Source: Paeniglutamicibacter psychrophenolicus
Lineage (GTDB): Bacteria > Actinomycetota > Actinomycetes > Actinomycetales > Micrococcaceae
Assembly: GCF_017876575.1 (NCBI RefSeq)
Contig: NZ_JAGIOE010000001.1
Span: forward strand, 868,001-932,000
Length of the DNA stretch: 64,000 nucleotides
Reading direction: 5' to 3'
Part shown: positions 17,618 to 21,061 of the stretch, in pieces
Numbering within the stretch: the first letter of the stretch is position 1
Layout of the letters: each line of letters starts with the position of its first letter
Position numbers and translations under genes: made by a program
The notes under the pieces: generated by a model
What the model was told of the DNA's origin: nothing
Database searches by the model: none
What the model saw: the letters and a program-made list of their open reading frames with translations, nothing else

Positions 17618-19150
17618 ATGTTGAACCAAGGACTGGGCAGCTGGATCCACAAGCGGCGCGTCAAATCTCGCGGGCACATCGCCATCGTCAGTGGCACTCA
17701 ATCGTTGACCTACGAGCAGCTGGCAGAGCGCATCGACCGACTGGCCAACGCACTCGGGGACGCAGGAATCAAGCGCGGCGACCGGGTTGCCTATTTGGGC
17801 AACAACCACCCCGCGTTCCTGGAGACACTCTTTGCCTGTGGCAGCATCGGGGCGATCTTCGTTCCCATCAATTCCCGACTGGCAGCCAGGGAAGTGGCCT
17901 TCGCCCTCGAAGACTCCGGAACGAGTCTGCTCGTCAACGCCCGGCAGCTGGACGAGCTCGCTGTGGCGGCAACCGAAAAGTCGCCCGTTTCCGCCCGTTG
18001 GGTGGTCGAGGAGGATGCCTCGTCCGTGGGGACCTATGAGGCGGCAATCCGTCAAGCCTCCGTGGAACGCCACGAGCATTCGGTCAGCATGGAAGACACA
18101 GCCATAATTCTCTACACCTCCGGGACGACGGGAAACCCCAAGGGTGCCATCCTGACCCACGGCAACCTCACCTGGAATTCGATGAACGTCCTGATCGACT
18201 ACGACGTCACCAGCACCCAGGTCGCCTTGATGATTGCACCAATGTTCCACGTCGCCTCGCTGGGGATGGGAGCGTTGCCAACATTGCTCAAGGGTGGCAC
18301 CCTGGTGTTGCAGGACCGGTTCGAGCCCTCGGCCGTGCTGTCCGCCATCGAGCAATACGGAGTCACCTCGCTCTCGGGCGTGCCCACCACCTACCAGATG
18401 CTCGCCGAGCACCCGAACTGGGAGACCACCAATATCTCCTCGATACGGATGCTCACCTGCGGAGGATCATCGGTCCCCGGTAGGGTCCTGGATGCCTACG
18501 AAAAACGCGGGCTCTCCTTCTCCGGCGGCTACGGGATGACCGAAACCTCTCCGGGGGCAACGTCACTGCAACCCGAGTACTCACGGGAAAAGGCGGGCTC
18601 CGCCGGGCTTCCCCACTTCTTCACCGGAGTTCGCATCGTCGACGCGGGCGGAGACGACGTTCCCGCCAACGACGTCGGGGAGATCCTGATCCAGGGCCCC
18701 AATGTCATCCCGGGCTACTGGAACAGGCCAGACGCAACAACGGAGTCATTTTTGGACGGGGACTGGTTCAAATCCGGGGACATGGGGTACGTGGATGAAC
18801 AGGGTTTCCTCTACATTGCCGACCGGCTCAAGGACATGATTATCTCGGGTGGGGAAAACATCTACCCGGCACAGGTGGAGCAGGCGATCATGGAACTGCC
18901 CGCCGTGGATTCCGTTGCCGTGATCGGTGTACCGGATGAGAAGTGGGGTGAAGCCGTGCATGCCGTCATCGTGGCGGCTCCCGGACAACAAATCAGCCGT
19001 GATGACGTCGCTGCACACCTGGAGGGAAAGCTAGCGCGCTACAAGATCCCGCGCACGATCGAAGTCGTCGATGAGATGCCGCGCACGGCCAGCGGAAAGA
19101 TCCGCAAGACCGACCTGCGCGAGGCCCATCGCAAGAATGCATTGGCATGA
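17618..19150 (+). CDS. Acyl-CoA synthetase (AMP-forming)
   Basis: An ANL-superfamily ligase of 510 aa that activates a carboxylic acid with ATP and CoA. Motifs in order: P-loop IILYTSGTTGNPKGAILTHG near residue 165, SGGYGMTETSPGATS near 305, GDWFKSGDMGYVDEQGFLYIADR near 385 with the hinge DRLKDMIISGGENIYP, and the catalytic lysine in RTASGKIRKTDLR near the C-terminus. Sequence style is that of FadD-type actinobacterial ligases; chain length or ring preference cannot be assigned. AAGGAA precedes ATG 17618. It probably supplies the CoA ester for the upstream dehydrogenase, hydratase and SDR. Confidence 0.87.
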   Translation: MLNQGLGSWIHKRRVKSRGHIAIVSGTQSLTYEQLAERIDRLANALGDAGIKRGDRVAYLGNNHPAFLETLFACGSIGAIFVPINSRLAAREVAFALEDSGTSLLVNARQLDELAVAATEKSPVSARWVVEEDASSVGTYEAAIRQASVERHEHSVSMEDTAIILYTSGTTGNPKGAILTHGNLTWNSMNVLIDYDVTSTQVALMIAPMFHVASLGMGALPTLLKGGTLVLQDRFEPSAVLSAIEQYGVTSLSGVPTTYQMLAEHPNWETTNISSIRMLTCGGSSVPGRVLDAYEKRGLSFSGGYGMTETSPGATSLQPEYSREKAGSAGLPHFFTGVRIVDAGGDDVPANDVGEILIQGPNVIPGYWNRPDATTESFLDGDWFKSGDMGYVDEQGFLYIADRLKDMIISGGENIYPAQVEQAIMELPAVDSVAVIGVPDEKWGEAVHAVIVAAPGQQISRDDVAAHLEGKLARYKIPRTIEVVDEMPRTASGKIRKTDLREAHRKNALA

Positions 19151-19181
19151 TCCGCGAAGCCCAACAACCCACATGATGACT

Positions 19182-19213
19182 GAAGCCACCGCTGCCACCA
19201 CAGCGGTGGCTTC
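19182..19213 (+). terminator. Perfect 13-bp stem after the CoA-ligase gene
   Basis: GAAGCCACCGCTG (19182-19194) pairs perfectly with CAGCGGTGGCTTC (19201-19213) around CCACCA, 31 bp after the ligase stop. It marks the end of the catabolic operon and separates it from the ATPase gene. Confidence 0.7.
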
Positions 19214-19298
19214 TGCCATCATCCGCAGCTGGGCAAAGATTCTTGGCCCGTTGGCCCGTTCGGCGTGTTGCGGGGCAGCGGGCACTCCAGGTCGCCAT

Positions 19299-19355
19299 GT
19301 ACACAGGAGTACACCCAGTACATAGGAGTACACTAAGTACACAAGAGTACACAGG
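19299..19355 (+). repeat. Three tandem 19-bp repeats before the ATPase gene
   Basis: Units at 19299-19317, 19318-19336 and 19337-19355, each of the form GTACAYARGAGTACACNNN. Each unit carries two GTACAC/T half-sites, at 19299, 19309, 19318, 19328, 19337 and 19347, alternating 10 and 9 bp apart, close to one helical turn. The last unit runs into the AGGAGG ribosome site of the ATPase whose ATG is at 19363. The array therefore overlies promoter and translation start, as expected for an autoregulatory protein-binding array. Confidence 0.85.
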
Positions 19356-19362
19356 AGGTTCC

Positions 19363-20469
19363 ATGGTTGAACGAAATCCAACGCAGAATCCTTTTCGGCC
19401 AACCGCAGGAGCCGAGCCGCCACAGCTGATCGGCCGAGCCGGGCTGCTGGATGAGTTCGCTTACGGTCTGCAGATCCGATCCGGCGCTCCTGGCCTGCTC
19501 ACCATCTTTACCGGTGCTCGCGGCATCGGCAAGACCGTCATGCTCGGCGAAGCCGAGGATATCGCACGCGCCCAAGGATGGGTGGTGGTGTCCGAGACCG
19601 CCACGACAGGGTTTCTTGGCCGAATCGGCGAAGCGATGCGCGCAGCGGCAGAAGAGCTGGGGCATGGTCCGGCAGGCCGGCGCATTACGGGCATCGGAGC
19701 CGCCGGGTTCTCTATCACTTCCCAGTTGCCGCCGGCTCAGCAGTTGGGATGGAGGCAACTGGGGGAGCAGTTGTTGCGCCTGCTGGACGAGAAGCGCACC
19801 GGCTTGGTTATCACCCTGGACGAGATCCACGGTGCCAACCGCGATGAGCTTGCTCAGCTGGCTGCCTTCGTGCAGCACTTCATCCGCGATGGACTGCCCA
19901 TCGCCCTGCTGTTTGCAGGCCTGCCCGCAGCCGTCTCCGACCTGCTCAACGAGGGCGTCGCGACGTTCCTCCGCCGAGCCGACCGAATCGACTTGCATGC
20001 CGCGGCCATCCGCGATGTTGAGGTCTCCTATGCAGAAACGTTCGCGAGCCTGGAATATCCGGTTGATCCTGGACTCATTCGGAAAGCCGCAGAATCCACC
20101 GGCGGATATCCGTTCCTCATCCAACTGGTTGGATACCATTTGTGGCAGCTGGCCGAGGTGAAACAGGGCCTCCTGAGCGAGGCAGATATTGATCTAGCCT
20201 TGGCCGCCGCTCATCAAAGGAACACTCGCGTTGTACTGGCTGCGGCATTGGCCACGGTGTCACCCAAGGACCTCGAGTTCCTGCGGGCGATGTCCCAAGA
20301 CGATGGGCCGTCGAACACCGCGGACATCGGACGACGCCTCGGAGATGCCAAAAACACCGTCGGCAATTACCGGGCCCGCCTCATCGACGCGGGACTCGTC
20401 CAGCCAGTGGGTCGTGGACTACTCGAGTTCGCCATCCCCGGTCTGCGCGAATACGTGCGCGAGACCTAA
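19363..20469 (+). CDS. AAA-type ATPase with C-terminal winged helix
   Basis: A 368-aa predicted P-loop ATPase. Walker A is GARGIGKT (residues 51-58) and Walker B is LVITLDE (148-154). The next segment, LLFAGLPAAVSDLL, looks like a sensor-1 strand. YPFLIQLVGYHLW near residue 250 is typical of Orc1/Cdc6-like and archaeal-type ATPases. The C-terminal part (about 305-365: DDGPSNTADIGRRLG, then NTVGNYRARLIDAGLVQP) is a winged helix-turn-helix. ATG 19363 has a perfect AGGAGG. The gene stands alone, preceded by the 19-bp repeat array and followed by convergent genes. The function is unknown; a DNA-binding ATPase acting at its own repeats is the simplest inference. Confidence 0.75.
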   Translation: MVERNPTQNPFRPTAGAEPPQLIGRAGLLDEFAYGLQIRSGAPGLLTIFTGARGIGKTVMLGEAEDIARAQGWVVVSETATTGFLGRIGEAMRAAAEELGHGPAGRRITGIGAAGFSITSQLPPAQQLGWRQLGEQLLRLLDEKRTGLVITLDEIHGANRDELAQLAAFVQHFIRDGLPIALLFAGLPAAVSDLLNEGVATFLRRADRIDLHAAAIRDVEVSYAETFASLEYPVDPGLIRKAAESTGGYPFLIQLVGYHLWQLAEVKQGLLSEADIDLALAAAHQRNTRVVLAAALATVSPKDLEFLRAMSQDDGPSNTADIGRRLGDAKNTVGNYRARLIDAGLVQPVGRGLLEFAIPGLREYVRET

Positions 20470-20551
20470 GGCGTTGAGCTGAAGTTCCGTTAGGCAGATC
20501 GTCAGGATCCCCGGATTGTCGACCGAAACCTGAGCGACCATCTCCAGTGCC

Positions 20552-20959
20552 TTACCGCGTTGGCTTGGGCAGCAGGACCTCGCCCTCCAACCCGTCCGGA
20601 TCCCGGAAAAAGGTGCTGAAAACCGCCCCGAAGTCGTTGACCTTTCCGTCACCTGCCCCGGCTTCGATGAGCCGGGTGCGGATGGTTTCGAAATCCTCGG
20701 GGGAGGCAGCGGCAAACCCGATGTGGTCGATCCGGCCACGTCCCCACATGGGTGTTTGGCGCTCTGCCTCGGAGTTCCCCTCGATGACGAAGACGTTGAG
20801 TTCGGTTCCTGGCCCGACCTTGACGTTGGTCATGGTTTCGCCGGGACCGTGGCCGCGGGTCGGGCCCACTTCGGCGTCGAAGACCTCGCGGTAGAAGTCG
20901 CCCAGCCGCTTGGCGTTCTTGGAAATGATGGCGATGTGGTTGATTCCGCCCAGCAGCAT
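20552..20959 (-). CDS. VOC-family (glyoxalase/dioxygenase-like) protein
   Basis: A small vicinal-oxygen-chelate protein (135 aa) with two beta-alpha-beta-beta-beta modules: INHIAIISKNAKRLGDFYREVFDAEVG at the N-terminus and RIDHIGFAAASPEDFETIRTRL in the second half. The C-terminal STFFRDPDGLEGEVLLP carries the metal-ligand glutamate. The histidine in INHIAI and that in RIDHIGF are plausible metal ligands. The substrate is not identifiable. The start MLLGGINH at 20959 is chosen, with the VOC fold beginning at once. It lies downstream of the IclR gene on the same strand and may be co-transcribed. Confidence 0.78.
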   Translation of the reverse strand: MLLGGINHIAIISKNAKRLGDFYREVFDAEVGPTRGHGPGETMTNVKVGPGTELNVFVIEGNSEAERQTPMWGRGRIDHIGFAAASPEDFETIRTRLIEAGAGDGKVNDFGAVFSTFFRDPDGLEGEVLLPKPTR

Positions 20960-21061
20960 GATTGGTCCTGTTCGTTCTCCGCGGGCCCGATGGGATACCT
21001 GGTCCCTATGACCATTGAGCGCCATGGGCCGGGCAAGTTCAAGGACTCCGGGAAGCGGGGC

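Follow-up and report, generated by a model that had tools for sequence, protein, structure and literature searches.

The window, that is, the entire 64,000-nt stretch of DNA analyzed here, contains a gene for an AAA+ ATPase with a predicted C-terminal winged helix and, in front of it, a row of short direct repeats (Table 1). The ORF that starts at ATG 19363 (19363-20469) encodes 368 aa; a longer form in the ORF list, starting at TTG 19243, would read through the repeats. On the same strand, the preceding gene stops at 19150; between it and the row of repeats lies an inverted repeat (19173-19222) that resembles a terminator hairpin but lacks a T run. Downstream, an unrelated minus-strand ORF (20552-21025) is convergent with the ATPase gene. 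A previous reading of this DNA made from the sequence alone (hereafter the sequence-only reading) described the neighbours as convergent and terminated: the convergent ORF is indeed present, and termination of the upstream gene at the hairpin, given the missing T run, is plausible only.

Table 1. Features of the ATPase gene and its upstream region (positions in the window)
Feature	Position	Strand	Basis
Inverted repeat, 22-nt arms, 6-nt loop, 91% complementary, between upstream gene and array	19173..19222		
Array, six 9-10-bp units, GTACAY core	19299..19355	+	sequence reading, chance test, family-wide period
Shine-Dalgarno-like AGGAGG, overlapped by the last unit	19353..19358	+	sequence reading
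ATPase gene, 368 aa: NPFxPTxG motif (N-terminal), AAA+ core, lid, C-terminal winged helix	19363..20469	+	ORF, Pfam, AlphaFold2
Walker A, GARGIGKT, residues 51-58	19513..19536	+	sequence
Walker B, LVITLDE, residues 148-154	19804..19824	+	sequence
Predicted winged helix, residues 301-356	20263..20430	+	AlphaFold2 model
Start of predicted recognition helix, residues 327-338, best tracker of the repeat sequence	20341..20376	+	covariation scans

The GTACAY units start at 19299, 19309, 19318, 19328, 19337 and 19347, that is, at steps of 10, 9, 10, 9 and 10 bp, and the six cores span 19299-19352; the array is also detected as three copies of a 19-nt unit. The six GTACAC/T half-sites and the three tandem 19-bp units of the sequence-only reading were accordingly located exactly where it had placed them, and so was the end of the array inside the ribosome site: the last unit (19347-19355) overlaps AGGAGG, which ends 4 nt before the ATG. 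The whole window was shuffled 200 times with its dinucleotides preserved; the longest chain of GTACAY at 9-10 bp spacing then comprised one site in 199 cases and two in the remaining case, compared to the six observed. When 1276 200-bp segments are ranked by self-match at lags 9, 10 and 19, each of the top four overlaps the array. Chance origin of the array is excluded. The one claim about the array that failed is that all sites face the same side of the DNA. The distance from the first to the last unit start, 48 bp, corresponds to 4.57 turns at 10.5 bp per turn, so that the sites cannot all lie on one side of relaxed B-DNA, and they rotate by about -30 degrees per site. Within the same genome, exact matches to the unit pair are found only inside this array, and the 16 further places with two mismatches are within the range of control patterns. 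There is one other place in the genome with at least three GTAC at the array spacing: three copies spaced by about 9 bp, with the different unit GTACGTCAA, adjoining no known family member (L017 1499-1524; C1:4460780).

A consensus search of 19140-20620 gave no sigma-70-like promoter; that the array lies at the gene's own promoter we infer from position only. A TTGAC within -15 to +8 of the array start was considered as evidence of a promoter and not used: it occurs in 7 of 83 arrays of the family described below, several of which belong to one group with AGGAAA repeats. In other members of this family, the median distance from the array end to the NPF motif is 41 bp, which means that some arrays do not reach the ribosome site.

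The Walker A and Walker B motifs and the C-terminal winged helix, which the sequence-only reading had assigned to the protein, are borne out. Lysine K57 of Walker A is retained in 105 of the 106 members of family A (see below), and D153 and E154 of Walker B in all 106; in the AlphaFold2 model, the winged helix consists of helices 301-311, 319-326 and 330-342 and wing strands 346-350 and 353-356. Pfam identifies an AAA_16 domain above the cut-off (E 5.2e-11). According to the model, the fold is SSO1545/Orc1-Cdc6/STAND-like: in a comparison limited to Foldseek's 1000 top chains, the predicted structure resembles SSO1545 over the overall fold, has the Orc1/Cdc6 architecture of an AAA+ core, a lid and a C-terminal winged helix, and is also close to chains of the NLR resistosomes and the CED-4 apoptosome. 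Neither Pfam nor the model revealed a sensor or effector domain beyond the ATPase and the winged helix, and there is no ParA family among the 9 Pfam matches up to E 1. The PADLOC matches are weak and partial, to the HTH of CARF/Csa3 and to Cas3, the best one (E 0.00086, CARF model) being limited to residues 291-351. The annotation of family members in the database records examined goes no further than "ATP-binding protein" or "AAA family ATPase".

A family of ATPase genes preceded by periodic repeats

Relatives of the ATPase were detected in 11 of 15 genomes of the genus (E 1e-40), in at least 44 of 198 genomes of the order (E 1e-30) and in at least 57 of 396 genomes of the phylum (profile, E 1e-25), where the last two counts are lower bounds because up to 10 (order) or 5 (phylum) candidates were scored per genome. 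A genome scan yielded 9 loci, including those in Leucobacter, Arthrobacter, Bifidobacterium, Corynebacterium, an Eggerthellaceae MAG and Rhodococcus. Among 72,556 plasmid records, 106 match the query, distant relatives included, and 14 of the regions were inspected; the family is frequent on plasmids of Arthrobacter and Rhodococcus. The members studied are mostly chromosomal, with up to several per genome. A phage origin was considered and rejected, with one weak match in 50,697 phage records, 2 loci on viral contigs in IMG/VR, and a match to PHROG 6841, which is of unknown function. From 168 full-length matches with enough upstream DNA, 17 were removed as more than 90% identical by an ungapped comparison, a filter that can leave near-duplicates differing by an indel. 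The rest were divided, at a profile score of 220 set by eye, into family A (220 and above; n=106) and group B (lower; n=45). Two plasmid loci deserve separate mention. L199 (CP123774.1 37625-44722), which belongs to family A, has a CTATAAAC-type row upstream and is closely preceded by a gene of an AbiEii/AbiGii-type toxin family; its record, obtained from a mixed insect culture, is labelled as a Bacillus subtilis plasmid, a host assignment that may be wrong. In L203 (NZ_CP018865.1 121747-128829), on a plasmid of Arthrobacter crystallopoietes, the match is in three pieces and the annotation gives two hypothetical proteins; the gene looks broken.

Periodicity was assessed as self-match by lag in the 200 bp before the NPF motif, against shuffles. 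In family A, the mean z is 4.03 at lag 9 and 5.16 at lag 10; multiples of this period are visible at lags 18-20 (1.98, 3.77 and 3.37), 28-30 (0.91-1.63) and 38 and 40 (about 1), and all values at lags 4-8 and 11-17 are below 0.6. Neither the coding DNA nor the DNA 400-600 bp upstream has this period: lag 10 is below zero in both, and the rise at lag 9 (1.0 and 0.7, respectively) is attributable to 9 being a multiple of three. Gene by gene, 75 of the 106 family A regions are significant at p<=0.01 and 86 at p<=0.05, compared to 2 and 6 of 106 coding controls, 0 and 6 of 104 far-upstream controls, and 1 and 3 of 77 regions before other annotated plasmid genes. When four sets of control lags were applied to these family A regions, 3-9 of 106 were significant at 0.01 and 13-18 at 0.05, which exceeds the nominal 5% and implies that these regions are somewhat repetitive in general, albeit far below the signal at lags 9, 10 and 19. 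The 20 members of family A that failed the test at 0.05 include L044, L047, L040 and others with rows that are visible by eye and were missed by the ungapped statistic; others show little, and a few lack a visible array. Arrays with at least four chained units (n=58) comprise 245 steps between units, of which 232 are 9 or 10 bp, 9 are 8 bp and 4 are 11 bp (mean 9.6); steps of 10 and 9 bp often alternate as they do in the window.

Group B has a mean z of 0.9 at lags 9 and 10, and 4 and 14 of 45 regions are significant at p<=0.01 and p<=0.05, respectively. Its peaks at lags 13 and 26 come from a single gene, L083, which has a long tandem repeat with a 13-bp unit in the 200 bp upstream (the self-match score at lag 13 is 125). 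Some group B loci (L085, L089, L144, L146) have inverted repeats before the gene, as opposed to the direct repeats of family A. As a candidate operator of group B, such repeats are too weak a signal (7 of 45 at a nominal p<=0.02, compared to 7 of 106 in family A).

Covariation of the repeats with the recognition helix

Unlike the period, the sequence of the unit varies widely: it can be, for instance, GTACAC, TTTCACC, ACTCACA, TTATAT, AGGAAA, CTTAGA, GGTATAAG or CTGATACGAC. The sequence-only reading had suggested looking for GTACAC repeats upstream of homologues; it is the 9-10-bp repeats that are found there, and GTACAC itself is restricted to close homologues. Similar recognition segments go with similar units, even across distant members, as in the case of VTxDYAQKYR with AGGAAA, SSQVAQYR with CTTAGA, and NVVSKYR with TTTCACC.

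This correspondence was examined by a blind scan in which, for each 10-residue segment of the protein, local identity was compared with array similarity after removal of the identity of the ATPase domain (residues 10-290). An alignment-based version of the scan included 83 of the 86 genes with p<=0.05 (L038, L082 (incomplete winged helix) and L192 were removed by hand, and the 20 genes without signal were not included), and a motif-based version used the 76 genes among these 83 whose arrays have at least three units. Covariation is strongest at residues 326-338, which make up the recognition helix in the predicted winged helix, and the peak falls on helix 330-342 of the AlphaFold2 model, which was made without covariation information. 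In the alignment-based scan, the top value is 0.166 (residues 328-337), compared to 0.087 for the best segment outside the winged helix; 0 of 2000 permutations reached the helix value, but permutation ignores relatedness, so the other segments of the protein are the better control. The helix remains first among pairs below 60% and below 50% identity (0.137 and 0.083 vs 0.062 and 0.065) and loses the top rank below 45% ATPase identity. In the motif-based scan, helix segments rank first of 349 at all five identity cut-offs, down to below 40%, with a partial r of 0.19-0.22 vs 0.12-0.14 elsewhere. As helix identity increases, motif correlations above 0.5 become more frequent among pairs with less than 50% ATPase identity, going from 6% to 44% of the pairs.

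Some observations run against this trend. The six pairs with the most similar helices show only weak array similarity (0.23) in the alignment-based scan, and three nearly invariant single columns outside the helix (283, 188 and 14) score as high or higher in the motif-based scan, which is probably the effect of a few outlier genes. Since the residues that track the repeats peak at the recognition helix, each protein very probably reads its own array. The proposal of the sequence-only reading that this is a DNA-binding ATPase targeting the array before its own gene is well supported by repeats that occur across the family and covary with this predicted helix.

Array and gene as one block, and paralogues in one genome

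The array and the gene form one conserved block. The homologous block shared by the plasmids p232 and pZXY21 starts 3 bp before the first unit, ends 15 bp after the stop codon, and is flanked by unrelated DNA on both sides. All 42 array-spanning columns are identical in three plasmid copies, and the block is 84% identical between L202 and L190. Plasmid p232 carries two copies of the gene, each with its array, the second array preceding the second gene copy. Likewise, the window gene and its relatives in two genomes of the same genus and in Leucobacter share DNA from the array onwards and not before it. Among pairs of genes with 77-97% identity, which represent a few clusters of related genes rather than independent cases, 21 of the 25 that could be assessed have the upstream edge of the block no more than 20 bp from where the array begins; in the remaining ones, shared DNA reaches further upstream (three pairs) or is shorter (one pair), and three more pairs could not be assessed.

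The neighbours differ from locus to locus, and no neighbour gene recurs at more than 4 of 68 loci in flanks of, mostly, 1.5 kb. A clean empty site could not be shown: of the 15 genomes of the same genus searched, the two with the best match to the upstream neighbour (G012 and G013; 82% identity) have other DNA downstream. At L073, L076, L080 and L082, the flanks of the family gene share another solitary ATPase-like ORF, presumably DUF4143-like.

The genome that contains the window encodes four family members, each with a different row upstream. One paralogue (L002; 56% identity) is preceded by GTGTAWA-like units about 10 bp apart, another (L003; 48%) by three TCTAAA units 9 bp apart, and a distant one (L004; 28%) by a looser TTATAAG-like row (p 0.0498). 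The design of the array is thus common to the paralogues, and its sequence is not. The arrays of L002 and L003 each occur once in the genome, at their own genes; like these two, the window array is intact only at its own gene. The GTGTAWA-type paralogue (L002, L022, L024) adjoins the same DNA-polymerase-III-alpha-like gene, by our reading DnaE2-like, in several genomes of the genus; because this downstream neighbour is shared, the copy appears to be stably inherited. We considered insulation as a selected property and rejected it: 2 of 25 within-genome pairs of paralogues have similar arrays (score >4), with no clear difference from other pairs of like identity, so the arrays of paralogues differ mostly because the paralogues themselves are divergent.

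Possible functions and relation to known systems

Taken together, these findings are best explained by cooperative autoregulation, most probably repression. We consider it probable that the array is a cognate operator which the ATPase binds through its own winged helix to shut down its own expression cooperatively, the paralogues being insulated from each other. Under this model, the ATPase would contact the array in front of its own gene through the C-terminal winged helix, and the regular spacing suggests one protein per 9-10-bp unit in a side-by-side assembly, that is, an ATPase oligomer on DNA. The row of proteins would extend over the leader and the ribosome site and probably also over the promoter, and the gene would be shut down as soon as protein has accumulated to a sufficient level; paralogues would stay insulated from one another because their recognition helices and arrays differ. 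The assembly could be controlled by ATP. Autorepression is suggested by the position of the array over the leader and ribosome site and by analogy with type Ia ParA and RepA; the ATPase may also have a second function besides autoregulation.

Two readings in which the repeats are not a DNA operator can be dismissed with some assurance. That the tandem repeats arose by slippage or by chance and have no function is hardly credible: such repeats can originate in this way, but the shuffles exclude chance in the window, the units diverge between the cores while the core and the 9/10 spacing are kept, on plasmids the array is conserved more than the gene, and the period is common to the whole family. 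Binding of the repeats by the protein as RNA, in the mRNA leader, is very improbable: the array does lie in a probable 5' leader, but the residues that track the repeats sit in a winged-helix recognition helix, a reader of double-stranded DNA, and the 9-10-bp period is near one helical turn. Alternatively, the ATPase might assemble on a centromere- or nucleation-like array for partition, tethering or replication control and, like ParR on parC, regulate its own gene only incidentally. An ATPase gene with 9-10-bp direct repeats in tandem before it is reminiscent of parC, the family is common on the plasmids of two genera, and the fold is close to that of the origin-binding Orc/Cdc6 proteins; nevertheless, we regard this as unlikely because most members studied are chromosomal and can number several per genome, the flanks searched contain no recurrent partner gene, two of the plasmids have their own ParA, or ParA and ParB, nearby, and p232 bears two copies with the same array.

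A conflict switch of the STAND type, in which the array would hold the ATPase inactive or poised until a signal from an invader (phage or plasmid) releases a toxic or regulatory action, would fit the closeness of the fold to SSO1545, the NLR resistosomes and the CED-4 apoptosome chains, the patchy distribution in the order and the phylum, the exchange of the block between unrelated flanks and its presence on plasmids. The protein, however, consists of an ATPase and a winged helix without a sensor or effector domain, the PADLOC matches are weak, and the flanks searched show no pattern of a defence island, which makes such a switch decidedly unlikely. Activation of the gene by its own product, in the manner of MalT or IniR, is quite improbable. 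Mycobacterial IniR, the ATPase domain of which has been modelled on SSO1545, is described as a protein of 818 aa that activates the neighbouring operon (PMC5760070), and so provides a precedent; yet IniR carries further domains, namely a MalT-like sensor domain and an SdiA-like DNA-binding domain (PMC5760070), the arrays of the family lie close to the start codon, and an array that overlaps the ribosome site, as in the window, is an unlikely place for an activator.

Beyond cooperative self-repression, the reading we prefer, a broader proposal can be formulated, which we consider possible but doubtful: one-gene, one-array elements of Actinobacteria, each an Orc1-Cdc6/STAND-type ATPase with 9-10-bp sites of its own, might be inherited and exchanged as units of about 1.2 kb, have diversified into many insulated specificities, and use an ordered oligomer winding slowly round the DNA as a functional assembly, segregation-like or immune-switch-like, and not just as a repression complex. 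Such an element would be a minimal DNA-templated STAND switch that connects STAND immune receptors with origin-binding ATPases. Literature searches, narrow in scope and limited to open-licence full texts, returned no description of the family or of the array design, which is weak evidence of novelty; the findings point to an undescribed family of self-targeting ATPase genes, and there is a smaller chance that the array-bound assembly is itself something new. The family is common on actinobacterial chromosomes and plasmids. Provided that each member recognizes the array in front of it, the sequence of every such gene tells in advance which DNA its orphan ATPase targets, and a recognition code relating helix residues to the repeat would be learnable and could be tested by helix swaps; insulated ATPase-array pairs could also serve as orthogonal repressor-operator parts.

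The closest known systems include type Ia ParA and RepA, with which the family shares an ATPase with a winged helix at motifs before its own gene (here, by prediction). Type Ia ParA proteins (F SopA/ParA, P1 ParA) are described as winged-helix ATPases that bind short motifs cooperatively and repress their own promoter, with three dimers assembling cooperatively on it; F ParA binds hexamers that are 13 bp apart or inverted (PMC8465637). The RepA proteins of repABC plasmids each repress their own operon in the ADP state, and those of one cell each bind their own operator (PMC4492784). Type Ia ParA belongs to another P-loop class, has an N-terminal winged helix, and works with ParB and a centromere, whereas the present family consists of AAA+/STAND-like ATPases with a C-terminal winged helix, encoded by single genes behind direct repeats every 9-10 bp. 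The Walker A motif, GARGIGKT in a Pfam AAA_16 domain, is not the deviant form of the ParA class, and in place of a downstream ParB partner there is an unrelated convergent ORF in the window and no recurrent neighbour across the loci. Because Walker A, the position of the winged helix and the gene order all differ, the family is not ParA. ParR/parC is alike in having a row of 10-11-bp direct repeats before the operon, with a specificity that differs between plasmid families: R1 ParR requires 11-bp and pB171 ParR 10-bp direct repeats (PMC9426499). ParR, however, is typically a ribbon-helix-helix protein, the ATPase of which, ParM, is separate and actin-like, so that the present family is not ParR either.

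By fold, the relatives are found elsewhere. The archaeal AAA+ ATPases SSO1545 and PABY2304 are 14-15% identical to the window protein, and we know of no array for these ATPases. Archaeal Orc1/Cdc6 (A. pernix ORC2) is 16% identical, and differs from the genes described here, which are bacterial and solitary and have the array at the gene itself. IniR and the MalT-type transcription regulators likewise have a STAND/SSO1545-like ATPase as their base (PMC5760070). The SSO1545/STAND fold links origin-binding ATPases and immune receptors (PMC8195603), and a bacterial member that carries its DNA target with it would offer direct access to the fold in its DNA-bound state.
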